Positions 4,492 through 20,458 of a DNA stretch of 58,320 bases are shown here, in pieces. The translations under genes and the position numbers were made by a program. Source of the stretch: a bacterium (lineage in GTDB: Bacteria; Bacillota; Clostridia; Christensenellales; Aristaeellaceae). The notes under the pieces are model-generated. The model saw only the letters and a program-made list of their open reading frames with translations. It was not told where the DNA came from and did not search any database. Position 1 is the first letter of the stretch. The number at the start of each line of letters is the position of its first letter. The DNA lies in NCBI GenBank assembly GCA_029009515.1, contig JAQXJZ010000158.1:1-58320 (forward strand), in the 5' to 3' direction.

Positions 4492-5112
4492 TTAATTGTT
4501 GCGCAGTCCTTCGAGTACATACACACACAGCGTGGCGCCGCCATCATATGTCTGCATGGCGCGCTCGCCAAGCCAGCGGGCCCTGCCGACAGAAGCCATC
4601 ATTCCCTTGGTAGCTTCCAGACCGGCCTTGGCTTCCACCAGTGCTTCATCATACGCCTGAACAAAATTACCCGTAGCTTTAAAGCTTTCTTCCAGCTTAT
4701 CCACGAAGGGATACAGAGCATCAAGAATCGTTTTATCACCGCGCTTGGCCTTTCCCAGACGTGCGATAGCGTCTGCAAAAGTACGCGCAGCCTGCACAAG
4801 ATCCGCATCCTCCAACTGGGTTTTGCCTTTCCAGCTGCCGCCCACAGACGCCAATCCCATGCCGATCAGCGTACCCATGGTAGAAGGCGCCGCACGGTTG
4901 AATGCTGCGCCACCCTGCATCAGCATCATGCCAATTTCCTCACCGGAATAACCTGCGATGCATTCCTGCAGCTTCAGAACACCAATTTCCATGGAAACGC
5001 CCAAATCACCGTCGCCGCTCATGCTGTCAATCTCTGTCAGGGCATCCTTTTTGCTTTTAACAATTTCTGCGCATTTTTCAATTGTTGCCTTGACATCTTC
5101 GATGGCATACAT
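4492..5112 (-). CDS. dhaL: DhaL-like kinase subunit (copy 1)
   Basis: ATP-binding (DhaL) half of a dihydroxyacetone-kinase-type enzyme, 206 residues, normal length for the family. The Mg-ATP aspartates are kept at D29, D34 and D36 in DSMSGDGDLG, but the histidine of the usual GDGDHG is leucine. Where canonical DhaL has a GASG-type loop, this protein has NRAAPSTMGTL. GDKTILDALYP and GRARWLGERA match other conserved blocks. A longer frame reaches 5175, but the ATG at 5112 has AAAGGAG ahead, and the extension would overlap the DhaK gene, so 5112 was chosen. It lies 22 bases downstream of DhaK copy 1 and is almost certainly its partner. No DhaM is nearby, so ATP rather than PTS phosphate is the likely donor (inference). 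Confidence 0.87.
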   Translation of the reverse strand: MYAIEDVKATIEKCAEIVKSKKDALTEIDSMSGDGDLGVSMEIGVLKLQECIAGYSGEEIGMMLMQGGAAFNRAAPSTMGTLIGMGLASVGGSWKGKTQLEDADLVQAARTFADAIARLGKAKRGDKTILDALYPFVDKLEESFKATGNFVQAYDEALVEAKAGLEATKGMMASVGRARWLGERAMQTYDGGATLCVYVLEGLRNN

Positions 5113-5134
5113 GGGTACGTTCACTCCTTTATGC

Positions 5135-6139
5135 TCAATAATAAAAGTTCGTAAAGGGAGATACAGCCGGCTCATCCAGATAATGAGTCAGTTCATCATC
5201 CAGCTTCATCAAGCTCAGAGACGCACCGGCCATTTCCATGGAGGTTGCATATTCACCCACATATACACGATGCACAGCAACGCCCTTTTCAGCCAGGATT
5301 GCGGACACATCATTGTAGAGGATATAGAGTTCCTCACGGGAAGTAGCGCCCAAACCATTAACCAGCACCGCAACCTTGTCGCCCTGCTGAATGGACAGGT
5401 CGCTGAGCAGCTCGCCGGTGAGGTGACTGGCCAGTTCTTCGCTGGTAATCATCTTGCCGCGCTTCACACCAGGTTCACCATGGATGCCCATGCCAACTTC
5501 CATCTCATCATCATCAAAGACGAAGATGGGCTTGCCCACATCAGGCAGGATGCAGGAGGAGAAAGCAACGCCGAAGGTAGCCGTATTCTCGCCGGCTTTT
5601 TCAGCCAGACGCTTTACCTCCCCCAGAGGCTTCATTTCTTCTGCTGCAGCGCCGGCAACCTTGTAGGCAAACATGATGCCTGCAATACCGCGGCGGGTCT
5701 GCCACTGCTCTCTGGGCGCACTGGCCACGTCGTCGGAACCAGTAACGATTTCAGCCTGAATGCCTGCAAAGCTGAGGAATTCCTTGGCCATGGCAAAGTT
5801 CATACCATCACCGGTGTAATTGCCAAACAGGAACAGCACGCCCGCCCCATTGTCCACACCGCGGCTGACGTTGAGGATGCTGTCGCTGGAAGGAGACGTG
5901 AACACGTTACCCACGGCAACACCGTCGCACAGTCCCTTACCCACATAGCCCAGGAACAGAGGCAGATGGCCATAACCGCCGCCGGTCACGATAGAGACCT
6001 TGCCGGGTTTCTTGCCGTCAACACGCGCCAAAGCACGGAGATCCTCATTACAGAAGGTGTAGAAATCGCCGTGAGCGGCAACGATTCCCTTCATGCTCTG
6101 GTCTACAAAATCTTTCGCTGCGTTCATGATCTTTTTCAT
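5135..6139 (-). CDS. dhaK: DhaK-like kinase subunit (copy 1)
   Basis: Substrate-binding half of a DhaK-DhaL kinase, 334 residues. In known DhaK a histidine binds the keto-sugar covalently as a hemiaminal; here it is H220 in GMGIHGEPG. The glycine-rich loop reads [11 protein letters not shown] (residues 52-62) where the canonical enzyme has GGGSGHEPAH, and [12 protein letters not shown] (108-118) matches the canonical NYTGD block. The altered loop lines the substrate pocket, so the substrate may not be dihydroxyacetone (inference). The ATG at 6139 follows AAGGAGG. It is 33 bases downstream of a permease gene and 22 bases upstream of DhaL copy 1, within one minus-strand operon. Confidence 0.88.
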
Positions 6140-6172
6140 ACGGTTTTTCCTCCTTGTTGATCGAATCCGTGT

Positions 6173-7078
6173 TTATCCCTTAATGGCGCCAACCATAACT
6201 CCCTTGGTGAAGAACCTCTGCAGGAACGGATAGAGAATCAGAATCGGAGCAGAGGAGATAACGATCAGTGCATACTTGACAAGTTCCAGCAGCATGCTGG
6301 ATGCATTATCCGTAAGTGCAGCAGCAGACGCACTTGCATTCTTATTAAGAAGAATAATCTGGCGCAGCACCACCTGCAGCGGATACATTTCCGGTTTCTG
6401 AATGAACAGGCTGGCGTAGAACCATGCATTCCAATGGCCGACGGCGTAGTACAGCACCATAACCGCAAGCGTAGCACCACTGAGCGGAAGGAAAATTTGC
6501 ACGAGGATGCGAGCATGACTCGCACCATCAATACGCGCCACCTCCACCAGACTATCCGGTACGGCTACAAAGGCCGAGCGCAGGATGAGCATATTGTAGG
6601 TGTTGATAGCCACCGGAATGATAACCGACCAGAGACTGTTCATCAAACCAAAGGACTGTACATTCAGATAGGTGGGAATGATGCCACCGTTGAAGTACAT
6701 GGTAAAGATAAACATGATGGTCAGCGGTTTTCTGAAAATGGAGCGGCGAAGCGACATCACATAGGCACCCAGGCAGGTAAACACCATGTTAACCGATACG
6801 CCTACCACCACAATGAATAGCGTGCTCTTCATGCCAGACATTACCAGCGGATTGAGTAGGGCGAATTCGTATGTTTCCAGCGACAGGGGGAATTTGGGCA
6901 ACCACATCAGGCCGTAGTCAGTGAGCATAGAGCTCGGGTCGCTCAGGGAAGCAATGATGACATACCACAGCGGATAAGCTGTCACCAGCACGACCAGCGC
7001 CATCAAGATGGTATTAAATACGGTAAAGACCCGATATCCTTTTCCCTCTTCTTTGAGCTTCATGTTGTTCTTGCGCAT
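6173..7078 (-). CDS. Carbohydrate ABC transporter permease, YtcP/LplC type
   Basis: Inner-membrane permease of the CUT1 sugar importer class, 301 residues, with six predicted membrane segments. The cytoplasmic EAA loop that docks the ATPase is visible as VEVARIDGASHARILVQIFLP, and the end YPFLQRFFTKGVMVGAIKG is the typical YtcP/LplC C-terminus. The ATG at 7078 follows AAGGGGG. It sits 13 bases after the partner permease and before DhaK copy 1. No ATPase gene lies in the operon; such importers usually share an MsmX-type ATPase encoded elsewhere (family knowledge). Confidence 0.9.
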   Translation of the reverse strand: MRKNNMKLKEEGKGYRVFTVFNTILMALVVLVTAYPLWYVIIASLSDPSSMLTDYGLMWLPKFPLSLETYEFALLNPLVMSGMKSTLFIVVVGVSVNMVFTCLGAYVMSLRRSIFRKPLTIMFIFTMYFNGGIIPTYLNVQSFGLMNSLWSVIIPVAINTYNMLILRSAFVAVPDSLVEVARIDGASHARILVQIFLPLSGATLAVMVLYYAVGHWNAWFYASLFIQKPEMYPLQVVLRQIILLNKNASASAAALTDNASSMLLELVKYALIVISSAPILILYPFLQRFFTKGVMVGAIKG

Positions 7079-7091
7079 GGTTGCACCCCCC

Positions 7092-8069
7092 TTACCACAG
7101 GCCTGCGCCCGTTACCTTGTGGCTGATCTTGTTAGCCGTCACCACAAAGGCAAAGTTGATCACGGAGTTGAACAGACCCACTGCCGTACCAAAGCTGAAG
7201 TCCGCCTGTTCAATACCGCGCCTGTACACGTAGGAAGAAATAACATCCGCAGAGTTGCGGTTCAAGTCATTATAAAGCAGAATAACCTTCTCGTAGCCGA
7301 CGTTCATTGCATTGCCAACCGCAAGGATCAGCAGCAGGATAATGGTGCTGGAGATGCCGGGAATCGTCACATGCAGTGTCTGCTTCCAGCGGTTTGCACC
7401 GTCGATACGAGCTGCCTCGTACAATTCCATGTCGATGGAAGAGAGAGCTGCCAGATAAATGATACTGTTCCAGCCCGTCGACTGCCATATGGTTGAAATT
7501 GTATAGATCGGCAAGAATGCCTTCTCGTAATTGAGAAGGTTGCCCGTGACGTCCATGCCAAACCAGCCGACGATTTCTGCAACAAATGCCTTTTCATCCG
7601 TGAAAAGCGTGATCATGGAGCACACAACAACGGTGGAAATGAAGTAGGGCATGTAGGAAACCGTCTGCACAAGGCGCTTGTACTTCTTGTTATGAATCTC
7701 GTTGATCAAAAGCGCCAGAATAATCGGAAGTGGGAAACCAAAGAGAATGTTAGCAAGACTGATGGTCAACGTATTGCGCAGCGTGCGCTCAAAATAGACA
7801 GAAGTAAAGAAATCGATAAAATGTTCAAAACCGAAATTGTCAGCCCAAGGACTTCCCCAAATACCCCTGCGCCTTGAGAAATCCTTAAATGCGATAATAG
7901 CGCCAAAGAGGGGCTTGTAGGCAAACAAAATAAAATAAGCGATGACCGGGACCGCCAGCAGGTAAGCACCGCCGTTGGCCTTGAAATCCCGCTGAAGGAT
8001 GGTTATCCATGACAATTTCCTGGTTGTTACACTTGCGGTCTTTCGTTCCACGTTCTTCTCCCCCGGCAT
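7092..8069 (-). CDS. Carbohydrate ABC transporter permease, LplB type
   Basis: Second permease of the same importer, 325 residues. The N-terminal YLLAVPVIAYFILFAYKPLFG and GAIIAFKDF blocks are typical of LplB, and the EAA loop reads ELYEAARIDGANRWKQTLHV. The C-terminus SHKVTGAGLW is also characteristic. The ATG at 8069 has no clear ribosome site. A GTG seven codons in (8051) is preceded by GGGGGAG at good spacing and may be the true start. The gene follows the solute-binding protein across an 83-base gap that holds a strong hairpin. Confidence 0.9.
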   Translation of the reverse strand: MPGEKNVERKTASVTTRKLSWITILQRDFKANGGAYLLAVPVIAYFILFAYKPLFGAIIAFKDFSRRRGIWGSPWADNFGFEHFIDFFTSVYFERTLRNTLTISLANILFGFPLPIILALLINEIHNKKYKRLVQTVSYMPYFISTVVVCSMITLFTDEKAFVAEIVGWFGMDVTGNLLNYEKAFLPIYTISTIWQSTGWNSIIYLAALSSIDMELYEAARIDGANRWKQTLHVTIPGISSTIILLLILAVGNAMNVGYEKVILLYNDLNRNSADVISSYVYRRGIEQADFSFGTAVGLFNSVINFAFVVTANKISHKVTGAGLW

Positions 8070-8082
8070 CAGATTTTGGAAT

Positions 8083-8116
8083 GCCGGAGCGTCAAACAGC
8101 TGTTTGACGCTCCGGC
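8083..8116 (-). promoter_or_regulatory. Strong intercistronic stem-loop
   Basis: A perfect 15-bp inverted repeat (8083-8097 with 8102-8116) around AGCT, itself palindromic. It lies just after the solute-binding protein gene and before its permeases. The minus strand has no good T tract after it (ATTCCAAAAT), so it is more likely a partial terminator or an mRNA stabiliser that keeps binding-protein mRNA above permease mRNA (inference). Confidence 0.7.
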
Positions 8117-8152
8117 AGGAATTATGTCACAAACTCACTTCTGGTTTATGAC

Positions 8153-9724
8153 TTAGTTGAAAGCCTCGAAGGACTCCTGCAGGATCTCCAGCACACGGGG
8201 CATACCCATCTTTTCGAGGGTAGGCAGGTACTCGCTCTCGAAGGTCTCGGGAGCCTTGGCGCCGATGATGAACTGAGAACGATACTCGGCCATGTAGGTC
8301 TTGATATCAGTCCACAGCTTGGCGTACTCATCAGCATACTTGGGCAGGATAGAGGTGTTCTGGATCTGGTACTTGTCGCCCTCGTTGGCAGCCCAGTTCT
8401 TGAAAGCCGCAGCCTGCTCAGGCAGACCATAGCGCTGCGCGAGCATCTCGTCGTCGTAATACATGGGCCAGTTCATCAGAGCGTAGGTGCGGAGCAGACC
8501 ATCCAGGGGCAGAGCATCGGGGTTGTTGACCATGAAATCGTTGAGAACGTACTTGCCGTCCACGATGTCAAAGGTTTCGCCTTCCACGCCGTAGTTGCTC
8601 AGGATGTGGCCAGCGTCGGTGTAGTAGTAGTTGAGGAGCTTGAGAGCGTTGATGCGGCGCTCGCCAGTGGTGGTTTCGGGGATGAAGGCGCAGAAGCTGC
8701 CCTCGATGTAAGTAGAGGCAAAGACGAAGTAAGCTTCGGTGCCATCAGCCTTGTTCAGCGGAGGAATGCCGACCAGGGAGAAGTTAGGATCGGTGCTGGC
8801 CTTCATCATGTTGGCGATGCGGCTGGCAGCGGTGAGCATCAGAGCAGACTTGCCGCTCATCATAGCAGAGTTGGCGATAGCTTCATCGGTCACGGTGAAG
8901 TTGGGATCCAGCAGGCCGTCAGCATACAGCTTGTTGAAGAACAGCAGGACGTCCTTGAATTCCTTTTCGGCAGCGCCGTAGTGCACGGTGCCGTTGTCAT
9001 TGTAAACACCAGTGGAGACCACACCGAAGGGAGCAGTGAAGGAGCCATCACCGGATTCCCAAGCCAGATTCCAGCGGCTGACGTCAGACATGAAGGGAGT
9101 TTCTACGCCCAGCTCGTCCTTGCAGCGCTTCAGGTAGGTGTACAGATCGTCGGGAGTCTTGGGGAATTCCATGCCCAGCTGATCCAGATACTCCTGGCGG
9201 GCAACCATGCCGAACCAGTAGCGATAGGGAGAGCCAGTGGGATAGATGGTGCTGGGGATGAGGTAGAAGCGGCCGTCATCCATGCGGGCATTGCTCAGAT
9301 ACTCGGGATGATTGTTGATATACTCCCAGTAGTCCGGAGCATACAGAGGAAGGTCGTCAGTCAGGTCGCTGGCAACACCGTCTTCGACCATCTTGCCAAT
9401 GCCACCGGGATACTCTCCGACGTTTTTCATCACAACGATATCAGGAAGATCACTGCTGGCCAGGTATACCAACAGAGCGTTGAGGTCCGCAGGCTCGATC
9501 ACTTCGATCTCGATGCCAGTCTGCTCTGCCCAAGCAGCAACGCCGGGAGCCTCGTTATAGGAAGTCATGCCAACGGTGGGCAGGTCGGGGTCGGCCTTGC
9601 GCACGATAGTGACCTTGGCGCCGTTACCAACGGGGTATTCCACGGCGGCTTCCGCCAGACAGCTGCCGAACGCCATCATGAGAACCAGAAGCATGAGAAC
9701 CATTTTGACTGCGAATTTCTTCAT
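8153..9724 (-). CDS. Extracellular solute-binding protein (LplA/YtcQ-like)
   Basis: Sugar-capture protein for the importer, 523 residues, exported. The N-terminus MKKFAVKMVLMLLVLMMAFG is a signal peptide. The only cysteine near it is in AFGSCLAEA, a poor lipobox (F at -3), so it may be a lipoprotein or may be cut by signal peptidase I after AEA. The body is a family 1 binding-protein fold: GMTSYNEAPGVAAWAEQTGIE at the start and VMKNVGEYPGGIG are typical. The ATG at 9724 follows AAGGAGG. It is the first gene of the minus-strand operon and is divergent from the XRE regulator, which may control it (inference). Confidence 0.88.
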   Translation of the reverse strand: MKKFAVKMVLMLLVLMMAFGSCLAEAAVEYPVGNGAKVTIVRKADPDLPTVGMTSYNEAPGVAAWAEQTGIEIEVIEPADLNALLVYLASSDLPDIVVMKNVGEYPGGIGKMVEDGVASDLTDDLPLYAPDYWEYINNHPEYLSNARMDDGRFYLIPSTIYPTGSPYRYWFGMVARQEYLDQLGMEFPKTPDDLYTYLKRCKDELGVETPFMSDVSRWNLAWESGDGSFTAPFGVVSTGVYNDNGTVHYGAAEKEFKDVLLFFNKLYADGLLDPNFTVTDEAIANSAMMSGKSALMLTAASRIANMMKASTDPNFSLVGIPPLNKADGTEAYFVFASTYIEGSFCAFIPETTTGERRINALKLLNYYYTDAGHILSNYGVEGETFDIVDGKYVLNDFMVNNPDALPLDGLLRTYALMNWPMYYDDEMLAQRYGLPEQAAAFKNWAANEGDKYQIQNTSILPKYADEYAKLWTDIKTYMAEYRSQFIIGAKAPETFESEYLPTLEKMGMPRVLEILQESFEAFN

Positions 9725-9988: not shown

Positions 9989-10438
9989 ATGATCGGCGAT
10001 ATTATCAGCGAATTGCGCAAGGATCGTAACATGACCCAGCGTGATCTTGCCAGAGTCCTGAATACTTCCGTTGCTACCATATCGCATTATGAAACAGAAA
10101 CAAATGCACCGGATATCGTTTCCCTGATCAAACTGGCCGATTTTTTTGGCGTATCCGTCGACTATCTTTTAGGGCGAACCCGCTTGAGAATGGACTTCAA
10201 CATGTTTTCCCGCGATGTGCGTATGATTGACGGTACCGTTACATCTGCCGAAAAGGTACTGACACAGTTTTTGCAGTTATCCGACAAAAGCCAGACAGAA
10301 GTGCTCAACCTGATCTCCCTGTTCCAGTTAAGAGATTCTGTTAAACACAACAGTATCATCAGTCCCTTCAAGGGAAACACGCCTTCCAGAGGAAAGAAGG
10401 CAAAAGCTGACAAAACAAAGGTTTCACCAGCGGAGTGA
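9989..10438 (+). CDS. XRE-family DNA-binding regulator
   Basis: Transcription regulator of 149 residues. The Cro/C1-type helix-turn-helix occupies residues 3-62: IISELRKDRNMTQRDLARVL, then VATISHYETETNAPDIVSLI, then LADFFGVSVDYLLGRT. The C-terminal half has no recognised domain and ends in a lysine-rich tail. The ATG at 9989 is preceded by TTGGAGG. It is 34 bases upstream of DhaK copy 2 and probably co-transcribed with it, and it faces away from the importer operon, so it is a candidate regulator of both directions (inference). No ligand domain is visible. Confidence 0.88.
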   Translation: MIGDIISELRKDRNMTQRDLARVLNTSVATISHYETETNAPDIVSLIKLADFFGVSVDYLLGRTRLRMDFNMFSRDVRMIDGTVTSAEKVLTQFLQLSDKSQTEVLNLISLFQLRDSVKHNSIISPFKGNTPSRGKKAKADKTKVSPAE

Positions 10439-10472: not shown

Positions 10473-11471
10473 ATGAAGAAATTCTTAAATGATCCGCGCC
10501 AATTTGTGGAGGACTGTCTGGAAGGCATCCTGGCAGCCCATGCCGATTTTTACCGCACACAGCCCGGTAACTCCAAAGCAATTGTTTTGCAGCATTTTTC
10601 TGCTCAGAACAGGGTTTCTATCGTTACAGGAGGAGGCATGGGACATCTGCCCCTGTTTCTTGGGTATTTGGGCGATGGCCTGTGTGCCGGCGCTGCTATG
10701 GGCAACATGTTTTCCACACCGGGCTATGACAGCGTAACCTGGGTAACCGAACAGGTGCCGCACGATCAAGGAATTCTTTATATCATTGGCAATTATGTTG
10801 GCGACATCATGAATTTCGAGCTTGCCGCCTCTCAGGCCCGCCAAAAGGGAATTCCCACCCGAACTGTTATCGTAACAGATGATATTGCAACCGCCCCAAG
10901 CGAGGAGCGCCCCAGCAGGCGCTGCATCAGCGGCATCGCCCTGATTTATAAAGTAGCGGGCGCAGCCGCTGCAATGGGCTGTTCTCTGGATGAAGTTGCT
11001 GAAATTGCGGAGTACGCAAACAACCATCTGGGGTCTATCGGGGTTGCCTTCACGCCCTGTCAGCTTCCCGATACTCAAACGCCCATTTTTTCGATTGGCG
11101 AAAATGAAATGGAAATCGGCGTAGGTATTCATGGCGAACCCGGTGTCAGGCGCACCAAGGTACGCCGCAGCCGCGAAATAGCCGAATATATGTTTGACCA
11201 GATTCAGGCAGATCTCACACTGGATGAAGGCGATGAGATTGCTCTGATGGTGAACGGTTTGGGAGCAACCGCTCAGGAAGAATTGTTCATTCTGTACCTT
11301 GATCTTCATCAGCTGTGCGAAAAACAAAAAATCAGCATTGGGTGTCGATACATCGGAAACTATGCTACCACCTTTGGTATGAACGGTGCGTCTGTTTCTG
11401 TGCTGAAGCTGGATCAACGCCTGCGCTCATTGCTGATGGCGCCTTCCTATTCTCCGCTTGTGCGCTACTGA
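10473..11471 (+). CDS. dhaK: DhaK-like kinase subunit (copy 2)
   Basis: Second substrate-binding subunit, 332 residues. It aligns with copy 1 without gaps over the key blocks: [14 protein letters not shown] at 52-65, GNYVGDIMNF at 106-115, and GVGIHGEPG with H220 in the same position. Like copy 1 it has GHLP instead of GHEP. The two copies differ widely elsewhere, so this is not a recent duplication. The ATG at 10473 follows AAGGAGG. It is 34 bases after the XRE gene and 37 bases before DhaL copy 2. Together they make a second kinase pair that may act on another keto-sugar or serve a different induction state (inference). Confidence 0.87.
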   Translation: MKKFLNDPRQFVEDCLEGILAAHADFYRTQPGNSKAIVLQHFSAQNRVSIVTGGGMGHLPLFLGYLGDGLCAGAAMGNMFSTPGYDSVTWVTEQVPHDQGILYIIGNYVGDIMNFELAASQARQKGIPTRTVIVTDDIATAPSEERPSRRCISGIALIYKVAGAAAAMGCSLDEVAEIAEYANNHLGSIGVAFTPCQLPDTQTPIFSIGENEMEIGVGIHGEPGVRRTKVRRSREIAEYMFDQIQADLTLDEGDEIALMVNGLGATAQEELFILYLDLHQLCEKQKISIGCRYIGNYATTFGMNGASVSVLKLDQRLRSLLMAPSYSPLVRY

Positions 11472-11508: not shown

Positions 11509-12147
11509 TTGTCGTTCTCGTTGGATGATATGCTGCAGGCTTTGAAACGAATCTCCTATGAGCTGATCGATGCCAAAGATCTGTTGACTTATATTGACAA
11601 CCTTTCCGGCGATGGTGATTTGGGTATTTCTATGGAAAAAGCTGCTTTCAGCATTTTGCAGGAAATCGATGTTCCAGCTGAGAGCATATCCGATGTGCTG
11701 TTTCGCTGTGCCCGTCAAATCAACATCAATGCGCCCTCCACCATGGGAACATTGCTGAGTTTTTCGCTCTTCGAAGCTGCCAAGCTCATGCAGAACAAGG
11801 CAACCATCGAAGACCGCGACGCCCTGATGATGCCCCGAAAAATGGTTGAAACCATCATGATCAACGGCCGTGCTCAGTTAGGAGATAAAACCGTTCTTGA
11901 TGCGCTGATTCCTTACACGGACGCACTGCAGGATCATTATCTGGAGCAGTTTGATATCGTAAAGGCAGCAAAACATGCGGCGATTCAGGCTGAAGACGCT
12001 GCCAATGCCACCAAGGGCTGTATTGCCAAAATAGGCCGTGCCAAATGGATTGCCGAACGCTCACGGAACTGTCCTGACGGTGGTGCTGTCGTGTGTGCCA
12101 TCATTGCCAATATGCTCATTCATCGCAAGATCAACATCCATGTATGA
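11509..12147 (+). CDS. dhaL: DhaL-like kinase subunit (copy 2)
   Basis: ATP-binding subunit of 212 residues, partner of DhaK copy 2. The aspartates D30, D35 and D37 lie in DNLSGDGDLG, followed by NINAPSTMGTLLSF, GDKTVLDALIP and GRAKWIAERS. The subfamily signatures (GDGDLG and APSTMGTL) match copies 1 and 3. The start is a TTG at 11509 with GAGGTG nine bases upstream; no ATG fits better, since the first in-frame ATG is only at residue 8 of this reading and lies farther from the site. A strong terminator follows 13 bases after the stop. Confidence 0.86.
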   Translation: MSFSLDDMLQALKRISYELIDAKDLLTYIDNLSGDGDLGISMEKAAFSILQEIDVPAESISDVLFRCARQININAPSTMGTLLSFSLFEAAKLMQNKATIEDRDALMMPRKMVETIMINGRAQLGDKTVLDALIPYTDALQDHYLEQFDIVKAAKHAAIQAEDAANATKGCIAKIGRAKWIAERSRNCPDGGAVVCAIIANMLIHRKINIHV

Positions 12148-12160
12148 TGCCCTTCATCCT

Positions 12161-12202
12161 AAAACATCGTCCGCTTCTTTGTACGAAGCGGACGATGTTT
12201 TT
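12161..12202. terminator. Bidirectional terminator
   Basis: A 17-bp stem (12161-12177 with 12185-12201) with a 7-base loop, A-rich on the left arm and T-rich on the right. It serves DhaL copy 2 on the plus strand and the convergent AraC-type gene, whose stop codon overlaps the T tract. Confidence 0.9.
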
Positions 12203-14522
12203 ACTCTTTGGACATTTTTTCTCCGTTACGTCTATAGCTGTTTGGCGTCATACCAGTACTCTTTTTAAAAATGGTAATGAAATAGGTGTTGCTTTGGAAA
12301 CCAACCCGCGCGCTGATCTCATTGACAGACAGATGCGTACTGCACAAAAGTTCCTTTGCCTTTTCGACACGCCGATTGTTCAGGTACTCCGAGAAGCCGC
12401 ATCCGGCGTAGGAGGAAAAAATCTTTCCTGCATAGCCTGAGGAGATCCCCACCATTTCTGCTGCAAAGGCCAAGGACAGATCCGAATTGCACAGTTCACG
12501 TTCCACCACGCTCAGAATCTTTCGGTACATCTGATAGCGCTGATTGCCTTGCACATCCGTAATAACATCCATCAGTTGCTCGCAGAATGCAATCAGATGT
12601 TTCTTCACGTCTGCAAGCGTCAGCAGATTGTTGCACTCACCGTATACCTCGTCTACATTATAGGGCAGTTCCTCATCGGTAAACGTTTTGAGCACGCCAG
12701 ATCCCGTCTGTAAAACATGAAAATACAACGTATTCACCATCAAACGCGCAAACTCCGGCGGGCACAGAGCAAGCCGTGCCAACGTTTCGTCTAACACTTC
12801 CACGGTTTTTTCTTTCTGTACCGATCTCACAGAATCGATCAGTTCTTTCAGTTTGAAAGAATCCAGAAACTCCGAAGTCGTCACGGTGCTTAGTTCTTCT
12901 CCATCCAGAACCGAACCAAACCCTCTGGTAAAGATATATTTTTCAAGAGCGAGAACATGCTGATAGGAGCGCTGAACCTCTTCCAGTTCCTTCACCACGC
13001 AGCCGATACACAAGGTGACGTCACAGCCCTTTTCTTCATACTGCATGCGCAGCGGTTCAAAGAAAGCCGGGGAGAGCAGCTGACAATCCTGTACGTATCC
13101 ACAAACAATATATGTACACAGATATCCATGCTTTTCTGCACGGGATTCGTACAATACAAACGCCATATCGCCATGCATCGCCAAAAAGCCAGACGCCATC
13201 TGCTCAATTTCCAAGCGCGTGGTAATCTGGTGTACAGACAGCCCGTCCTCCAGCGTACTCTCTTCCGGAATACGCATCAGCAGAGCCAGCACCTGATAGC
13301 TATGCTTGCTGGCAAGTGTTGGAAAGTGCTCGGAAAGCAACGGCAATTCTGCCGCCGGATGTCCCATCAGCAAACCGGCGATCAGCTGTTTGTGAATATA
13401 GGGCTCCGTACTCGCCAGCTTTTGTGTATGCGCACTCAGAGAACTGCGCAGTCGGTCAAACTGAATGCCAATATATTCAATTTCATCGCTGGCATAGCTG
13501 AACAGATCCCAGTCGTGCTGATTCTTGGATACATCTGCCAGAACATAGGCCACTGTGCTGTAGGAGCGGCGCAGCAGAAAAAACACACCCGCCAGCGAAA
13601 CCAGCAAAATCAGACCAATAACCGCATATGTATCGCGCAAATAATCGTTCATACTGGCAAACAGCCGCCCTCGTTCCTCTACCACCATAACGGTGTAGTG
13701 CGCTTCCTTCTGATAGGCTACCATATAGGTGGCCTCATTCACATGCAGCTCAATCTGTCCCTCTTCCTCCTGCAATTTTCCATCGCTTTCAGTCAGGATT
13801 TCTTCAAGCGTACTGGTGTCGAAAGAAGCCGCCTTGCACAGTAAGCCGGAATGATTCAGAATCAGAATGTCAGAGCCAATGCCGCCGCGTTTTTCCAAGT
13901 ATGTGGCAAAGAAATAATCCGCTTTGACATTGATAACGATGCCGCTGGCCAGCACAGGCAGATTGTTTTGCTGTTTGGATACCTGATGATATCCCACTGG
14001 GATCACCATGCTCATCAGCGCCTCGCCGGACGCACCCGTTATGCTTCGCGCAAGAAAGCAGTACGGCACAACTCCTTGCTGTTCAAAAAAATCGGAAATA
14101 TCCGCCTGCAATATCCGTTTGTCTACAATGCCTGAGTTGTAATAGAATTCATGCCGCGTATCAATGACTGATATTGAATCAATACATGGATATTGAGCCA
14201 AAATACTTCGGATCTTTCCGTTGATGGCAAAGCGATCATATTCATCATTAGATTTGCCAGAAAAAACATTTTTGATCTGGACAGCATTGGTCATCATCGA
14301 TGCAGCTGCATTGACCTGCTGATGCAGCCCGTCAAACTGTGATGCATAGGTTACGCTGATCTGTTCGAGCATACCGTAGGCATCTTTTTGCATATATCGA
14401 AAAAAATGATTGTTTAAAAAGAAGGAAATAACGCATATCGTCAGTACCAGAGCGCAGCCAAAAAGAACCATGACACGCACAAAAAAACGTTTCGCCTTCA
14501 TTAAGCGTCTCAGCTTTTGCAT
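12201..14522 (-). CDS. Membrane-anchored AraC-family regulator with extracellular sensor
   Basis: One-component sensor-regulator of 773 residues. A membrane segment at about 16-35 (VMVLFGCALVLTICVISFF) is followed by a long extracellular region to about 295, in the position of a Cache-type sensor, and by a second segment (YAVIGLILLVSLAGVFFLL). The cytoplasmic part ends in two AraC helix-turn-helix motifs (about 670-770): LSLAFAAEMVGISSGYAGKI and LSVNEISARVGFQSNTYFIT. YesN/YtdP-like proteins of this build usually control a neighbouring CUT1 importer. It is divergent from the permease gene at 14800, so that importer is the likely target. The ATG at 14522 follows AAGGAGG. Confidence 0.88.
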   Translation of the reverse strand: MQKLRRLMKAKRFFVRVMVLFGCALVLTICVISFFLNNHFFRYMQKDAYGMLEQISVTYASQFDGLHQQVNAAASMMTNAVQIKNVFSGKSNDEYDRFAINGKIRSILAQYPCIDSISVIDTRHEFYYNSGIVDKRILQADISDFFEQQGVVPYCFLARSITGASGEALMSMVIPVGYHQVSKQQNNLPVLASGIVINVKADYFFATYLEKRGGIGSDILILNHSGLLCKAASFDTSTLEEILTESDGKLQEEEGQIELHVNEATYMVAYQKEAHYTVMVVEERGRLFASMNDYLRDTYAVIGLILLVSLAGVFFLLRRSYSTVAYVLADVSKNQHDWDLFSYASDEIEYIGIQFDRLRSSLSAHTQKLASTEPYIHKQLIAGLLMGHPAAELPLLSEHFPTLASKHSYQVLALLMRIPEESTLEDGLSVHQITTRLEIEQMASGFLAMHGDMAFVLYESRAEKHGYLCTYIVCGYVQDCQLLSPAFFEPLRMQYEEKGCDVTLCIGCVVKELEEVQRSYQHVLALEKYIFTRGFGSVLDGEELSTVTTSEFLDSFKLKELIDSVRSVQKEKTVEVLDETLARLALCPPEFARLMVNTLYFHVLQTGSGVLKTFTDEELPYNVDEVYGECNNLLTLADVKKHLIAFCEQLMDVITDVQGNQRYQMYRKILSVVERELCNSDLSLAFAAEMVGISSGYAGKIFSSYAGCGFSEYLNNRRVEKAKELLCSTHLSVNEISARVGFQSNTYFITIFKKSTGMTPNSYRRNGEKMSKE

Positions 14523-14799: not shown

Positions 14800-15732
14800 A
14801 TGATTCCCACGGCCCCCGTCTCCTTTCGGCAAAAGCTTCTGCGTTTGGGCAAGTACAAAACCTACTACATCATGTTTTTTCCTGTGGCACTCTGGTACAT
14901 CATCTTCTGCTACATCCCCATGGCTGGCGTATCGATCGCTTTCAAAGACTTTTCCTTTAAAGCAGGTATTTTCGGCAGTGAATGGGTAGGCCTCAAGCAC
15001 ATCAACCGCATGCTCAGCAGCCGCGACTTCCGCCGTGTGATGGGCAATACCCTGGAGCTGAGTGCACTGAGAATTCTGATCGGCTTTCCTTTCCCCATTA
15101 TCTTTGCTCTGATGTTGAATGAAGTGCGCTTTCCTAAAACAAAGAAAGCGCTGCAGACCATTTCTTATCTGCCTCACTTCGTATCTTGGGTAGTTATCAG
15201 CGGTATTCTTTTTAGTTTTTTCTCATCCGGCGGTTTCGTCAATCAGTTCATTCGCCGTTTGGGCGGACAGGCCATTCCTTTCATGTCATCGGAGGAATTG
15301 TTTCCGTGGTTCCTGGCGCTGTCAGCGCTGTGGAAGGAACTCGGATGGAACGCCATCATCTATCTGGCAACGTTATCCTCTATCGATCCGCAGCTGTACG
15401 AGGCAGCCATGATCGACGGCGCAGGACGCTGGAAGCAGCTGATTCACATCACCTTCCCGTCTATCCGTTCCGTAGTCAGCATCATGCTGATTCTGTCTTT
15501 GACCAATGTACTGAGCGCCGGTTTTGATCAGGTGCTGGTTATGATCAATGCAGCAGTGCAGAGCAGCGCTGAAACCATTGACTATTACATCTTCCGTATT
15601 GGCGTTCAGCGCGTGAACAACTATTCTTACGCCACAGCAAATGGTCTGGCCAAATCGCTCATCAGCCTTGTGCTGGTTGTAACTGCCAACTGGGGCGCCA
15701 AGAAGATTGATCCGGAAGGAGGTCTTTGGTAA
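14800..15732 (+). CDS. Carbohydrate ABC transporter permease, LplB type
   Basis: First permease of the second importer, 310 residues. The blocks YYIMFFPVALWYIIFCYIP and GVSIAFKDFS near the N-terminus, the EAA loop QLYEAAMIDGAGRWKQLIHI and the end KKIDPEGGLW are typical of LplB. The ATG at 14800 follows CGGAGG. The next gene begins at the last base of its stop codon (TAATG), so the two permeases are translationally coupled. The permeases precede the solute-binding protein here, the reverse of block 1. Confidence 0.91.
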   Translation: MIPTAPVSFRQKLLRLGKYKTYYIMFFPVALWYIIFCYIPMAGVSIAFKDFSFKAGIFGSEWVGLKHINRMLSSRDFRRVMGNTLELSALRILIGFPFPIIFALMLNEVRFPKTKKALQTISYLPHFVSWVVISGILFSFFSSGGFVNQFIRRLGGQAIPFMSSEELFPWFLALSALWKELGWNAIIYLATLSSIDPQLYEAAMIDGAGRWKQLIHITFPSIRSVVSIMLILSLTNVLSAGFDQVLVMINAAVQSSAETIDYYIFRIGVQRVNNYSYATANGLAKSLISLVLVVTANWGAKKIDPEGGLW

Positions 15733-16631
15733 TGATGGATCAGCAGCCTACGCTGGCTAATAAATCGCCGGCAATGAAAATCGGTTGGGGCGACTATGTC
15801 AATCTCGGCCTGATCATCCTCATCTGTGTCACCATGCTCTATCCCTTCCTGTATCTTCTTCTGCTTTCCCTTGCACCCATTGAACAGGTGGCTCAGGGCG
15901 GTTTCCTGGTCATTCCTAAGTACATTGAGCTGGAATCCTACCGTTATGTGCTGCGTGCTTCAGGTATTGGCAAGGCGTACGCAGTTACCATCACAGTTAC
16001 CTTTCTTGGCACGCTGCTGAGTCTGACGCTGACCAGTCTGGGTGCGTATGTGCTGGCCAACCGCCGTCTGCCCGGTGTGGACGTCCTGAACGTTTTCCTC
16101 ATTATTACCATGATTTTCAACGGCGGCATGATTCCTACCTATCTGGTGGTGAAATCGCTGGGTATGATCGACACGCTGTTTGCCATGTTCATTCCCAATG
16201 CGATGAACACTTTCTGGTTGTTCGTCATGCGCAACTTTGTGCGCAGCATCCCGGATACGCTGTTTGAATCGGCCCGTCTGGACGGCTGCGGCGAGTTTGG
16301 CATCTTCACCCGCATCGTGCTGCCGGTGTCCGGCGCTATTCTGGCTTCGCTCACCCTGTTCTACGGCGTCGGCTTCTGGAATCAGTATTTCATTCCCCTC
16401 ATGTATATCAACTCCACCCCCAAGCAGCCGCTGCAGGTGCTCATCCGTTCCATGTATCAGTCCACCACCTCCATGACCGGCAGCGTGGTCATGTCCGACA
16501 CACTGCCTCCGCCGGTGGAATCCATCCGCGCCGCTACCATCATTCTGGCTACCGCGCCGATCCTGACTGTCTACCCCTTCCTGCAGAAGTATTTCACCAA
16601 GGGCATCATGGTTGGTGCCATCAAAGGGTAA
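15732..16631 (+). CDS. Carbohydrate ABC transporter permease, YtcP/LplC type
   Basis: Second permease, 299 residues, six predicted membrane segments. The EAA loop reads LFESARLDGCGEFGIFTRIV and the end YPFLQKYFTKGIMVGAIKG is typical. An upstream TTG at 15726 keeps the frame open, but AAGGAGG at 15716-15722 is best spaced for the ATG at 15732, which overlaps the previous stop. The 113-base gap after it holds the ribosome site of the binding protein and no clear hairpin. Confidence 0.91.
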   Translation: MMDQQPTLANKSPAMKIGWGDYVNLGLIILICVTMLYPFLYLLLLSLAPIEQVAQGGFLVIPKYIELESYRYVLRASGIGKAYAVTITVTFLGTLLSLTLTSLGAYVLANRRLPGVDVLNVFLIITMIFNGGMIPTYLVVKSLGMIDTLFAMFIPNAMNTFWLFVMRNFVRSIPDTLFESARLDGCGEFGIFTRIVLPVSGAILASLTLFYGVGFWNQYFIPLMYINSTPKQPLQVLIRSMYQSTTSMTGSVVMSDTLPPPVESIRAATIILATAPILTVYPFLQKYFTKGIMVGAIKG

Positions 16632-16744
16632 TCCGAAAGCCGCTCTGCTTTGAAAGGCATAGAAAGGAGGTACATCTTCGAGCCGGGCTTTCTGAACATA
16701 CGAACAATTTACCTGCATATCACAAAACGAAAGGAGCTATCATC

Positions 16745-18253
16745 ATGAAGAAACTGGTTTCTCTGCTGCTGGCTATGATCCTGTGCTTCGGCTGCTTCGG
16801 CGGTCTGAGCGCGCTTGCCGAGGAAGAGCGCGTACCGATCTCCATCATCTCCTTTGACTATGCCCGTGTTGTGAAGGAAGACGATCCTATTCGTGAGAAG
16901 ATCGGCGAGATCACCGGCACGGAAGTCAACGTGAACATCGTTCCTACCGATCAGTTCCTGCAGAAGGTCAACCTGATGATCGCTGCCAACGATGTGCCCG
17001 ACCTGATCCGCTTCAACGGCTATGATCACTTCCAGTACATCGACACCGGCGCTCTGCTGGATCTGACCCCCTATCTGGAGAAGTACCCCGAGCTGAAGGC
17101 TGTCATGCCTCAGGAAGCTTGGGATCTGGTCACCGTTGACGGCCACATCTACACCATCCCCAACTACAACGTTCCCGGCAAGTACAGCTACTACGTCCGT
17201 CAGGACTGGCTGGAGAACCTGGGCCTGAAGCAGCCCAAGACGCTGGAAGAGCTGCGCGAAGTGCTGCTTGCCTTCACCTACAATGATCCCGATGGCAACG
17301 GCGTGGATGATACCTACGGCCTGTCCGTGCACGAGATGATCGGCGGCATGGAAGTGACTTGCTTCATGCCCGTGTTCGGCGCCTACGGCATTCAGCCCAA
17401 CCGCTTCTTCGAGAAGGACGGCAAGGCTTATAACCCCGTGCTGACCGAGAACTACAAGCAGGCCCTGGAGTTCTGCCACCAGCTGTACGCCGTGGATAAG
17501 GTTGTCGACCCCGACATCTTCATCATCCAGAGCGACGCTGCCCTGCAGAACATCGTTAACAGCAAGACCGGTACCACTGTCGGCTGGTGGGCCACCATCT
17601 GCGAAGCTGTCAACGACCGCCTGAAGATGCCCTCCATCTGCCCCGAGGCCAAGTGGGTGATGTGCAACGACATTACCGGCCCCAACGGCGACTACGGCAT
17701 GATGGCCAACAACCTCAACTCCTTCACCGTCTCCATCTCTGCCAACAGCAAGAACATCGAAAAGTGCTTTGAGCTGCTCACCTACCTGGGCTCCGACGAA
17801 GGCTTCATGCTCAGCTGCTACGGCGAAGAAGGCGTGCACTACACTGTGGACGAGAACGGCAAGTTCCTGGCCCGTACCGAGGAAGGCACCCTGGCTATGA
17901 ACGACATGTGGCTGGACCTGATGAGCCAGTACGTGTACCGCGTCATGGAATACCAGGAGATCCTGTGCACCATCAACCCCGGCTATCGTGAGTTCCAGCA
18001 GGCTGCTATGAACGCCAAGCTGTACCAGAACCTGTTCGAAGGCATCACCACCGAGGAGAGCACCATCTATCTGGCTGACCTCAACCAGATCCTGCTCGAC
18101 TGGTCCGTGAAGTTCATCACCGGCAAGGAGCCTCTGGAGAACTTCGACGAGTTCGTGGAGGATTACAAGGCCAACGGCGGCGACGAAGTGCTGCAGTCTT
18201 ACATCGACGTGTACAACGCTCGCAAGGGCACCAACCTGGTGGCTGGCAACTAA
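16745..18253 (+). CDS. Extracellular solute-binding protein (LplA/YtcQ-like)
   Basis: Sugar-capture protein for the second importer, 502 residues. The signal peptide MKKLVSLLLAMILCFGCFGG ends in SALA, so signal peptidase I cleavage before EEERV looks best; the cysteine in CFGC is not in a standard lipobox. The core is a family 1 binding-protein fold, and DNDPDGNGVDDTYG-like text (here YNDPDGNGVDDTYGL) is the calcium-loop-like segment common in this group. The ATG at 16745 follows AAAGGAG. A strong hairpin sits 12 bases after the stop, so downstream genes are probably expressed less. Confidence 0.89.
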   Translation: MKKLVSLLLAMILCFGCFGGLSALAEEERVPISIISFDYARVVKEDDPIREKIGEITGTEVNVNIVPTDQFLQKVNLMIAANDVPDLIRFNGYDHFQYIDTGALLDLTPYLEKYPELKAVMPQEAWDLVTVDGHIYTIPNYNVPGKYSYYVRQDWLENLGLKQPKTLEELREVLLAFTYNDPDGNGVDDTYGLSVHEMIGGMEVTCFMPVFGAYGIQPNRFFEKDGKAYNPVLTENYKQALEFCHQLYAVDKVVDPDIFIIQSDAALQNIVNSKTGTTVGWWATICEAVNDRLKMPSICPEAKWVMCNDITGPNGDYGMMANNLNSFTVSISANSKNIEKCFELLTYLGSDEGFMLSCYGEEGVHYTVDENGKFLARTEEGTLAMNDMWLDLMSQYVYRVMEYQEILCTINPGYREFQQAAMNAKLYQNLFEGITTEESTIYLADLNQILLDWSVKFITGKEPLENFDEFVEDYKANGGDEVLQSYIDVYNARKGTNLVAGN

Positions 18254-18264
18254 CGCCTCACAAC

Positions 18265-18300
18265 GAACGGAAGGCGCCTTCCGGCGCCTTCCGTTCTTCT
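18265..18300 (+). terminator. Stem-loop after the binding-protein gene
   Basis: A perfect 14-bp stem (18265-18278 with 18283-18296) with loop TTCC, followed by TTCTCTTC. It may be a partial terminator that lets some transcription through to the epimerase and DhaL-VOC genes. Confidence 0.75.
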
Positions 18301-18351
18301 CTTCACTGCTGTTGACCCTCAACAGCGATCTTAAGAAGGAGCTTTGAGTAT

Positions 18352-19332
18352 ATGCGTATTGTTGTTATCGGCGGCAAGGGCCATATTGGCACCTATCTGG
18401 TTCCCCGCCTGGTGGAAAGCGGATTTGAAGTCATCAGCGTTTCGCGTGGTCAGAGCAAGCCCTATTCCAACCATGGTGCATGGAAGTCTGTTAAGGAAGT
18501 GCTTTTGGATCGCACAGCCCTGGAAAAAGATCATGCCTTTGGACAGAGTATTGCTGATCTGAAACCGGATGTGGTGGTGGATCTGATCAACTTCGAAACC
18601 TCCAGCACCATTGAAATGGTCGAGGCGCTGCGCGGAAAGGTGCAACAGTACCTGTACTGCAGCTCCGTCTGGGCGCATGGCTATGCTACGGTGGTTCCCG
18701 CCAGCGAATCGGATCCCAAAGTGGGTATCTGCGACTACGGCCGCAAAAAGAGGGAAAGCGAACTGTACCTGCTGGATGAAGCCCGCAGGGGTCGTTTCCC
18801 CGCCACCACCATCGGCCCCGGCCACATCACCGGTCCCGGCTGGACCTGCATCAACTGCGCCGGCAACTTCAATCCCAGAATTTTTGAAAAGGTTCTGCGC
18901 GGTGAAGAAATCGCCCTGCCGCACTTCGGCATGGAAATGCTGCACCATGTGCATGCCGATGACGTTGCCCAGATGTTCCATCAGGCCATCCTGCGCATGC
19001 CCGCCGCCATCGGCGAGGACTTCTATGCCGTTGCGCCGCAGGCCATCACCCTGCGCGGCCTGACCGAGGATCTGTTCACCTATTTCGGTTATCCCGAAGC
19101 CCGCATCCGGTACCTGCCCTGGAAGGAGTGGTGCGAGGAAACGCTGGCGGAAGAACCGGAAAACGGCCAGTCCTACATCAACAGCACCTACAGCCATCTC
19201 ACGCACAGCGACTGCTACTCCATTGAGAAGTCCTGCCGCCTGATTGGCTACCGTCCGCGCTACACCATCCCGCAGGCCGTTCACGAGTGCGTAGACAGCC
19301 TGATCGCGCGCAGCGTCATCACCAAAGACTGA
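18352..19332 (+). CDS. NAD-dependent epimerase/dehydratase (extended SDR family)
   Basis: Cytoplasmic oxidoreductase or epimerase of 326 residues. The Rossmann fingerprint GGKGHIG is at residues 7-13; YLYCSSVWAHGY carries the serine region, and YGRKK the catalytic Tyr-x-x-x-Lys. The protein is in the group of sugar or sugar-nucleotide SDRs, but the substrate is not readable. It lies between the importer and DhaL-VOC gene, 22 bases upstream of the latter, so it may act on the imported sugar, for example by oxidising or epimerising it to a keto form (inference). The ATG at 18352 has AAGGAG upstream at slightly long spacing. Confidence 0.85.
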   Translation: MRIVVIGGKGHIGTYLVPRLVESGFEVISVSRGQSKPYSNHGAWKSVKEVLLDRTALEKDHAFGQSIADLKPDVVVDLINFETSSTIEMVEALRGKVQQYLYCSSVWAHGYATVVPASESDPKVGICDYGRKKRESELYLLDEARRGRFPATTIGPGHITGPGWTCINCAGNFNPRIFEKVLRGEEIALPHFGMEMLHHVHADDVAQMFHQAILRMPAAIGEDFYAVAPQAITLRGLTEDLFTYFGYPEARIRYLPWKEWCEETLAEEPENGQSYINSTYSHLTHSDCYSIEKSCRLIGYRPRYTIPQAVHECVDSLIARSVITKD

Positions 19333-19354
19333 TCGTAAAAGGAGCGTATTCGCT

Positions 19355-20458
19355 TTGTACACACATTCAGACATTCAAAAGGTACTGCGAATTATTTCCC
19401 AATCGTGGATCGCATCTGAACCGGCGCTGACAGAACTGGATGGCCATCTTGGAGACGGCGATCTGGGTCAGTCTCTGCTCAAGGGCGGTGAAGCCCTGAA
19501 CGAGGTATTGGATCACGCAGGCGGACAATCCATCTCGGAATGTTTGACCCTGTGTGCACAAGCGTTCAACCGTGCGGCTCCCTCTACCATGGGAACGCTG
19601 CTGAGCTTTTCGATGATGGATCTGGCAAATGCCTTCAAGGGCATGGACGCGCTGAGCGATCAGGACGTCATCGGCATTCCACGCCGTCTGGCACAGAGCA
19701 TTGAACGGCTCGGCAAGGCTCATCCCGGCGACAAAACCATTCTGGACGCCCTCTATCCCTGTGCTGATGCGATGGAAGCCAGCTTCGCTGCTGAACCTTC
19801 CCTGCGCAAAGCGCTTATCTGCGGCGCCAAAGCCGCCCGGGAAGGCGCTGAGAAAACCAAGGGCATGGAAGCGCGCATGGGTCGCGCTCGCTGGATGGGT
19901 TCGCGCAACGCGGAATATCCGGATCCCGGCTGTGTGATGCTTGCTGAAGTACTTGCTGCCTTGGAAAAAGCTGCAGCTCCAGGTCACATCGACAGTCTGG
20001 ATATCATGCAGCTCACCATCCTCGTACCCGATATAGAAGCGGCTGTCCGCAATGTGAGCGAGTTGTTCGGCATTGAAGCCCCCAATATCCGCCATCATTC
20101 CGGCCCGGACAAATGCGCCTTCTATTTCCGCGGCGAACGTTGTGAAGTCGGTGCAGCACGGCTGTGTACCTTCACATTTGGCCCTGTTGGGTTCGAATTT
20201 GTAGAAGTCTGCGATTCTCAGAATAATTCCTGGAAGGATTATCTGGATAAGTATGGCTATGGAGTGCACAATATCGGCTTCTATGTTAACGATCTTTCAG
20301 GCGCCTTAGGTGCATTGGAAGCCAAGGGAGCATTTCCCATTCATGAAGCTTATTTCCCCAACGAAAGTTATCGTGTCGTCGATTCTGAAAAACTGATCGG
20401 AACCCGTCTGAACATCAAGCACCGCGGGGAAGAAAACACCCGCATGATTCATCCATAA
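19355..20458 (+). CDS. DhaL-like kinase subunit fused to a VOC (glyoxalase-fold) domain
   Basis: Two-domain protein of 367 residues. Residues 1-205 are a DhaL domain with D29, D34 and D36 (LDGHLGDGDLG), NRAAPSTMGTL and GRARWMGSRN. Residues 215-355 are a VOC domain of two beta-alpha-beta modules: IMQLTILVPDIEAAV starts the first and VHNIGFYVNDLSGAL the second. At the four metal positions of glyoxalase I this protein shows Q219, E281 or E284, H305 and N353, so three resemble the eukaryotic-type Q/E/H/E set and the last is changed. Start is a TTG at 19355 with AAAGGAG upstream. No DhaK lies in this operon, so its DhaL half may pair with a DhaK from 5135 or 10473. I know of no described DhaL-VOC enzyme. 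Confidence 0.85.
   Translation: MYTHSDIQKVLRIISQSWIASEPALTELDGHLGDGDLGQSLLKGGEALNEVLDHAGGQSISECLTLCAQAFNRAAPSTMGTLLSFSMMDLANAFKGMDALSDQDVIGIPRRLAQSIERLGKAHPGDKTILDALYPCADAMEASFAAEPSLRKALICGAKAAREGAEKTKGMEARMGRARWMGSRNAEYPDPGCVMLAEVLAALEKAAAPGHIDSLDIMQLTILVPDIEAAVRNVSELFGIEAPNIRHHSGPDKCAFYFRGERCEVGAARLCTFTFGPVGFEFVEVCDSQNNSWKDYLDKYGYGVHNIGFYVNDLSGALGALEAKGAFPIHEAYFPNESYRVVDSEKLIGTRLNIKHRGEENTRMIHP

Follow-up and report, generated by a model that had tools for sequence, protein, structure and literature searches.

A GHLP subfamily of DhaK-DhaL kinases beside sugar importers in an Aristaeellaceae genome, with ATP as the likely phosphoryl donor

Introduction

What does a relative of dihydroxyacetone kinase phosphorylate, and from which donor, when its active-site signature is altered and its genes stand beside sugar importers? 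The question is raised by a 58,320-nucleotide stretch of DNA (contig JAQXJZ010000158.1 of assembly GCA_029009515.1; here, the window) from a bacterium of the family Aristaeellaceae (Clostridia), in which positions 4,492 to 20,458 encode two DhaK-like and three DhaL-like proteins. A sequence-only reading of that part had proposed an ATP-using kinase subfamily for a keto-sugar other than dihydroxyacetone, possibly a tetrulose or a branched ketose such as apulose. Our comparisons identify these proteins as members of a real, coherent and widely distributed DhaK-DhaL subfamily that spans several phyla, here named GHLP after its DhaK motif; the window carries an accessory version of it, duplicated in part and fused in part. 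That the subfamily uses ATP is well supported, and the claim of a substrate other than dihydroxyacetone is the weaker of the two. Public records label such proteins dihydroxyacetone kinase; if the substrate differs, the finding would change annotation, and many sugar operons are misnamed.

Active-site residues

Open reading frames (ORFs), Pfam matches and direct reading bore out the earlier inventory of proteins, motifs and neighbours. DhaK1 (5135..6139, minus strand; Dak1 378 bits), predicted from its residues and tree position to be a ketose-binding kinase subunit of GHLP type, is paired with DhaL1 (4492..5112, minus strand; Dak2 127 bits), by alignment the putative ATP-binding subunit, of the GDGDLG/APSTMGTL type, for which we picked the ATG at 5112 as start. 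DhaK2 (10473..11471, plus strand; Dak1 339 bits), also of GHLP type, is paired with DhaL2 (11509..12147, plus strand; Dak2 114 bits), and DhaL3 (19355..20458, plus strand; Dak2 129 bits) is fused to a second domain and has no adjoining DhaK. All five proteins exceed the Pfam gathering cut-offs (Dak1 31.4 bits, Dak2 27 bits).

Both DhaK proteins read GGG-x-GHLPLF (GGGMGHLPLF in one of them) and GIHGEPG, as had been claimed. We aligned 120 distinct DhaK sequences from genome-contig, plasmid, E. coli and family-level matches, with duplicate rows collapsed from 149 to 119 and residues numbered as in E. coli; 104 of the 120 are GHLP. His56 and Asp109 have acid/base roles in DhaK, and these two residues and His218 are invariant in all 104, both window proteins included. 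By contrast, canonical Glu57 is replaced by Leu (102/104) or Met (2/104), canonical His60 by Phe (104/104) and canonical Lys104 by Gly (104/104, again including both window proteins), so that where the canonical model TIGR02363 has Glu57, His60 and Lys104, the two window DhaK have Leu, Phe and Gly. Five canonical rows of the alignment carry Glu57 in five cases, His60 in four and Lys104 in four. Gly104 is also present in 4/4 DhaQ-like (GHKP) rows and in 5/7 rows of other types; on this alignment, the canonical group is recognised by Lys104 and GHLP by Leu/Met57. A chance motif was ruled out: the signature is kept across the whole GHLP branch.

The DhaL partners change together with DhaK. All three window DhaL retain the three invariant aspartates and read GDGDLG and APSTMGTL, and the alignment confirms what had been said of the Mg-binding residues and both blocks. 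A DhaL was assigned a partner when a DhaK lay no more than 400 bases away on its own strand (n = 116); six of the 122 DhaL examined have none in reach, window DhaL3 among them. In all 101 partners of GHLP DhaK the three Asp are kept, the His of GDxDxG is absent (Leu in 92), and Ser, after P, A, S or G, stands where other DhaL have GG, whereas partners of other DhaK types have His and GG in 15/15. Among 12 references added later, the single GHLP partner fits (GDGDLG, APSTLGTL); the 11 non-GHLP references have His in seven and lack it in four, all single-chain kinases, with GG in eight and GA in three. Combined, Ser fills this column in 102/102 GHLP partners versus 0/26 others, and His is found in 0/102 versus 22/26.

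Two simpler markers were rejected. GDGDLG does not stand alone, as Agrobacterium and Paracoccus single-chain kinases combine it with canonical GHEPAH, and the GG block is no universal mark of the other types, since Rhizobium etli, Agrobacterium (L198) and the second DhaL of Sinorhizobium meliloti read VGAS. On these counts, what distinguishes the GHLP-partner DhaL is Ser in the former second-Gly column. That the two subunits changed together would fit residues touching each other across the DhaK-DhaL interface, and it provides a coupled marker for re-annotation.

Phylogeny and family assignment

A scan of genome contigs, limited by a pattern, found 392 relatives; we used the best 80 of the 392. 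The resulting tree has 130 rows, with 12 references added and two very long branches (L111, L119) left out; the erythrulose kinases LerK and DerK are not among its rows. In these quick trees, scored by one support measure (SH-aLRT), the 105 GHLP rows of 130 form one side of a branch with support 99, and support is still 98 after two motif blocks are dropped. A separate group (support 98 and 97) takes in E. coli DhaK and a Citrobacter-type glycerone kinase. The window DhaK fall outside the branch that holds these two and not among characterised dihydroxyacetone kinases, in agreement with the sequence-only reading; they lie inside the GHLP branch, with Leu/Met57, Phe60 and Gly104, and their DhaL partners lack the His and have Ser replacing the second Gly. 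By record titles, members of the branch come from Bacillota, Pseudomonadota, Chloroflexota, Deinococcota, Bacteroidota and others.

The DhaK equivalog TIGR02363 has a cut-off of 406 bits, which E. coli DhaK passes (521) and the window DhaK miss (349 and 320); three further GHLP DhaK also score below it (342-391), which makes all five scanned, and so do two S. meliloti DhaK of other types. The window DhaL miss the DhaL equivalog TIGR02365 (108, 93 and 99 bits; cut-off 138), and the window DhaK miss the DhaQ model TIGR02362 (222 and 224 bits; cut-off 413). PRK14479 (NF011049; cut-off 492) is missed by the separate chains when scored singly (DhaK 420 and 386; DhaL 154, 142 and 151). Among the titles listed by literature searches on the topic, in which the motif was not a search term, none concerned the GHLP subfamily, and we make no firm claim of its absence from print.

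Two observations concern GHLP loci elsewhere. Plasmids of Citrobacter and E. coli (L007, L009) carry phosphotransferase system (PTS) genes, a class II aldolase, a GHLP DhaK-DhaL pair and an HPr-like gene, with a second pair, reading GHEPTF, on the other strand. In five loci (L029, 9277-9831; L030, L032, L053, L055) a protein of about 185 residues, the representative of which has no Pfam match, is encoded directly upstream of the GHLP DhaK.

Phosphoryl donor

The earlier observation that DhaM is absent held on a wider scale. E. coli DhaM used as phmmer query matched 0/85 GHLP neighbourhoods (84 loci plus the window), and neither PTS enzyme I nor EIIA-Man gave a match in the window genome (175 contigs, 86% complete), controls being positive in 7 and 5 of 14 named genomes. 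DhaM and enzyme I, which the PTS-dependent DhaKLM system requires, were thus not found in this genome. Because DhaM, enzyme I and EIIA-Man all went unmatched, ATP is the likely phosphoryl donor, a well-supported assignment on genomic grounds; the separate branch and the missing PTS matches together favour the proposal of a distinct, ATP-using kinase subfamily.

The window proteins share with E. coli DhaK-DhaL-DhaM the Dak1/Dak2 families, the DhaK residues His56, Asp109 and His218 and the three Asp, but come without DhaM or PTS matches, have Leu, Phe and Gly for Glu57, His60 and Lys104, and in DhaL have L for H and APSTMG for VGGASG. The Citrobacter glycerone kinase, as described in PMC4661931, uses ATP as donor. 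The window proteins resemble it and other single-chain kinases in their likely donor, and the four such kinases examined also lack the DhaL His (GDGDTG twice, GDGDLG twice), which may also fit ATP use. These four differ in being single chains, with a canonical K half (GHEPAH, KNYTGD) and the GG block kept in all.

Gene order and the second pair

The kinase genes stand in two loci. On the minus strand, cassette 1 comprises a sugar-binding protein (8153..9724; SBP_bac_1 45 bits), permeases B (7092..8069; BPD_transp_1 66 bits) and C (6173..7078; BPD_transp_1 36 bits), DhaK1, DhaL1 and, as its last gene, a GH2 enzyme of beta-mannosidase type (1942..4473; Pfam Glyco_hydro_2_N2, Ig_mannosidase, Glyco_hydro_2_C). 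Divergent from it, on the plus strand, an XRE-family regulator (9989..10438; HTH_3 57 bits) is followed by DhaK2 and DhaL2. The arrangement is syntenic in one other genus (G033), with the binding protein, two permeases, DhaK1, DhaL1 and GH2 on one side and XRE, DhaK2 and DhaL2 on the other. Identities to the G033 genes are 74% for the binding protein, 84% and 85% for permeases B and C, and 72% over 126 residues for the XRE regulator, which holds the same place. DhaK1 (71%) is closer to its counterpart than DhaK2 (53%), and DhaL divergence runs the other way (DhaL1 51%, DhaL2 61%). The GH2 gene has matches at E <1e-150 in 3/308 family genomes, its own included (G033 orthologue 72% identical, the third 39%), and, among solved structures, beta-mannosidases match it best (5n6u, 194 bits).

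The two-locus layout described earlier stands as far as the import genes go, but XRE-DhaK2-DhaL2 belongs to the first (GH2) cassette and not to the AraC locus that follows, because DhaK2 begins 34 bases behind XRE and the genes end before a terminator-like stem of 17 pairs (12161..12201), placed by a consensus scan only. Terminator-like stems number 23 in the window versus 16.0 (standard deviation 3.9) in shuffled sequence; a promoter scan of the window gave 15 sites versus 13.8 expected.

Family membership, the kept and changed residues, the co-segregation of DhaK and DhaL, the branch, the synteny and the missing PTS matches were computed here, and alongside them we infer the substrate, the order of steps and the roles of DhaK2-DhaL2 and of the VOC domain fused to DhaL3. 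The explanation that we prefer, tentatively and at slightly less than an even chance, is that the window encodes two complete GHLP DhaK-DhaL pairs and an orphan DhaL-VOC protein, and that cassette 1 serves glycoside uptake, GH2 cleavage and ATP phosphorylation of a small sugar, with a triose as the likeliest class. Cassette 1 (importer-DhaK1-DhaL1-GH2, divergent from XRE-DhaK2-DhaL2) would import a glycoside, GH2 would split it, and the resulting small ketose or aldose would be phosphorylated. By analogy with the family, DhaK would bind the carbonyl of the small sugar covalently through its His218 equivalent and DhaL would supply Mg-ATP held by the three Asp; a triose would then yield dihydroxyacetone phosphate or glyceraldehyde phosphate directly.

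The second pair could instead sense a ligand and act on the XRE regulator, with DhaK1-DhaL1 as the kinase. DhaQ is a second DhaK copy beside a regulator, and the DhaQ-DhaS and DhaR systems would be comparable. The window resembles DhaQ-like coactivator paralogues (TIGR02362) in having such a second copy beside a regulator and in Gly104, found in the four GHKP rows, but its DhaK, which belong to the GHLP type, fall well short of the TIGR02362 cut-off. The order XRE-DhaK2-DhaL2, with its 34-base gap, is kept in G033, and DhaK2, a faster-evolving sister group of DhaK1 in the tree, has the longer branches (0.54 and 0.72, with a stem of 0.68, versus 0.22 and 0.35). Yet DhaK2 retains His56, Asp109 and His218; a DhaK from a genome of the same genus (G190) that groups with DhaK1 is long-branched as well (0.73); and alignment and a repeat search of the divergent promoters of the two genera gave no convincing XRE operator common to both. 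On S. meliloti pSymB (L191, 10699-12786) a SorC/DeoR-type sugar-binding regulator is fused to DhaK, with another DhaK-DhaL pair and an ABC importer next to it. These proteins are of other types (GHEPAF, GHEPCF), and the SorC-DhaK, which reads GHEPCF, was rejected as a GHLP member. We consider the sensor explanation unlikely, but a sensing role for DhaK2-DhaL2 is worth testing because the S. meliloti fusion couples DhaK to a regulator elsewhere.

Substrate

We then asked what the neighbourhoods of GHLP pairs say about the substrate. Cluster and operon labels depend on a greedy choice of ORFs, made with no gene caller, and on Pfam scans of representatives; several clusters are unnamed. A CUT2-type ATPase occurs in 58/85 neighbourhoods and its permease in 55/85, versus 3/85, window included, for a permease like the window's. 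Near the pairs lie genes for aldo-keto reductase (26 of 85), FGGY kinase (14), APH-family kinase (11; presumably MtnK-like), TctA (9), DHDPS (9), class II aldolase (6) and Fba (4). TpiA-like genes are found in 1/85 and RpiB-like genes in 2/85, and the window genome has a single triose-phosphate isomerase (TIM) and a single RpiB. Among 86 same-strand runs, 26 have no labelled enzyme besides the kinase, although some of the unnamed clusters lie inside them; 16 of the 26 include ABC importer genes, and in 7 of these 16 none of the probed enzymes is found anywhere in the stretch.

The rarity of TIM-like and RpiB-like genes nearby, and their single copies in the genome, favour a product that can feed straight into glycolysis, namely a triose phosphate, and a triose (dihydroxyacetone or glyceraldehyde) emerges from these counts as the single most likely substrate class, with a probability that we would put a little under one half. 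The class II aldolases in 4 of the 86 runs and the Fba-type aldolases in 3 could release such a triose.

Several points weigh against this explanation. Of the 16 runs with importer and kinase genes, nine are accompanied by an aldo-keto reductase gene outside the run but in the same stretch, and because of these we keep the preferred explanation at lower confidence; five are accompanied in this way by a TIM-barrel isomerase. The binding proteins of four tested GHLP loci share 5bra as best solved relative, an entry named with ribose as substrate, and this kinship suggests a larger ligand. Throughout the branch, residues 57, 60 and 104 carry fixed substitutions, which would be odd if the substrate were still dihydroxyacetone, and the window DhaK and three other GHLP DhaK score below the curated DhaK cut-off. 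The GH2 context gives by itself no pointer to a triose, and, as the genome is 86% complete and 13 of the 84 loci are shorter than 12 kb, the absences counted above are not final.

The GHLP pairs may instead use ATP to phosphorylate a larger ketose (erythrulose in its D or L form, apulose or some other branched ketose), the loss of Lys104 and Glu57 making room for an extra carbon. This is possible but doubtful; we would give a tetrulose or other ketose about three tenths. Gly104 in 104/104 with Leu/Met at 57, the position outside the branch of E. coli DhaK and Citrobacter-type glycerone kinase, and transketolase-half genes close to a handful of GHLP pairs (between 3 and 6 of 85, depending on the query) fit a larger substrate. 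Gly104, however, is common to DhaQ-like and other types and by itself does not mark one. The tetrulose-phosphate isomerases of the Mycolicibacterium erythrulose route are TIM-like and RpiB-like, and such isomerase genes were not found in the window stretch; the counts of 1 and 2 in 85 loci, with one TIM and one RpiB in the genome, tell against the larger ketose as they favour the triose. That route leads from erythrulose phosphates to erythrose 4-phosphate (PMC12780249), and LerK, LerI and DerI are named in PMC10733421. The earlier proposal of a keto-sugar other than dihydroxyacetone is left with a distinct branch and fixed pocket changes in its favour and the scarcity of tetrulose-phosphate isomerase genes against it.

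Apulose found no support in the window: apiose dehydrogenase, OiaX and other apiose genes are not among the proteins scanned (1942-21261). Another non-canonical (Gly104) DhaK-DhaL pair (L192, 15569-17239; GHEPTF/GDGDHG) closes the D-apiose cluster annotated on R. etli p42f, near oiaX, TIM-like and RpiB-like genes, which speaks for the larger ketose. Like S. meliloti SorC-DhaK, it has Gly104 and stands beside ABC importers, with no DhaM annotated in the stretches shown, but both (GHEPTF and GHEPCF) differ from GHLP in a DhaL with His and a VGAS block, and both lie outside the GHLP branch. Apiose membership of GHLP was rejected, the R. etli DhaK reading GHEPTF. The link of GHLP to apiose or tetruloses is thus by relation only, and a tetrulose role elsewhere in the DhaK-DhaL family is plausible. 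The p42f cluster already holds a four-carbon acid sugar kinase.

As a special case of the preferred triose explanation, the pairs could be triokinases whose main substrate is glyceraldehyde (D or L), or a similar aldehyde set free by an aldolase, in pathways of sugar acids or ketose 1-phosphates. According to PMC6429413, human TKFC phosphorylates glyceraldehyde, and the G190 operon, in which RraA-like, short-chain dehydrogenase/reductase (SDR), DhaK, aldo-keto reductase and DhaL genes lie beside importer genes and an enolase-superfamily gene, would suit such a pathway. The 86 GHLP runs point the same way in part, with DHDPS-type genes in 7, APH in 5, IF-2B in 5 (APH and IF-2B together in four) and class II aldolase in 4, but many runs have no aldolase label at all and no aldolase is among the window proteins scanned. 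We regard this version as improbable.

A 2025 paper states that transporter and kinase sets for tetroses are unreported (PMC12780249); GHLP operons with their own importers are candidates for such sets. The fullest reading, a multi-phylum kinase subfamily with remodelled substrate- and subunit-contact residues for a non-dihydroxyacetone sugar (a tetrose or other rare sugar) with dedicated importers, a pair duplicated in the window's clade (DhaK2-DhaL2) as a sugar sensor for XRE and an orphan DhaL fused to a VOC enzyme, strikes us, taken whole, as unlikely.

The fused DhaL and its locus

Locus 2 begins with an AraC-type regulator (12201..14522, minus strand; HTH_18 75 bits), followed on the plus strand by permeases B (14800..15732; BPD_transp_1 50 bits) and C (15726..16631; BPD_transp_1 38 bits), a sugar-binding protein (16745..18253; SBP_bac_1 67 bits), an SDR of the NAD-dependent epimerase/dehydratase family (18352..19332; PF01370 68 bits) and DhaL3. 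Both permease pairs and both binding proteins of the window exceed their cut-offs, and we take the importers to be of the CUT1 class. Relatives of the SDR occur, at E 1e-30, in three further genomes among the 308 of the family.

DhaL3 is joined in frame, in one chain, to a VOC/glyoxalase domain (19985-20458, about residues 211-356; Pfam Glyoxalase_4, 34 bits, cut-off 27). The fusion starts at a TTG, with an AGGAG ending ten bases upstream. No full-length match to it was listed in 149 further genomes of the family, nor, at E 1e-25, in 395 further genomes of an order-level set that overlaps with the first. Locus 2 resembles the operon of G190, a genome of the same genus: relative to that RraA-like-SDR-DhaK-AKR-DhaL arrangement, it is without DhaK and the aldo-keto reductase (AKR) and has the added VOC domain. 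The enolase-superfamily gene of G190 resembles sugar-acid dehydratases, below their cut-offs.

The nearest VOC relatives found are free VOC proteins that, in several genomes of the family (L155, L157, L158, L159), adjoin importer genes of the same class. Because these free relatives sit beside importer genes, the VOC part of DhaL3 is probably a sugar-pathway enzyme. Some of the free-VOC loci also carry Gfo/Idh/MocA-type oxidoreductase, TIM-barrel (AP_endonuc_2) or 3-keto-disaccharide hydrolase genes, and the free proteins are possibly a step of keto-sugar breakdown. The only strong solved relative of the domain, 3gm5, is named merely as a lactoylglutathione lyase relative.

Flanking gene and base composition

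The next gene, on the opposite strand, encodes a SIS-domain sugar isomerase-like protein (20530..21261, minus strand; SIS_2 162 bits; PRK02947 286 bits, cut-off 135), of which the membership in locus 2 is unsure. Across the window, G+C is 0.46-0.57 between 4 and 20 kb versus 0.56-0.66 in the remainder; the low G+C and the patchy occurrence of the genes fit, and suggest, horizontal gain of this stretch.

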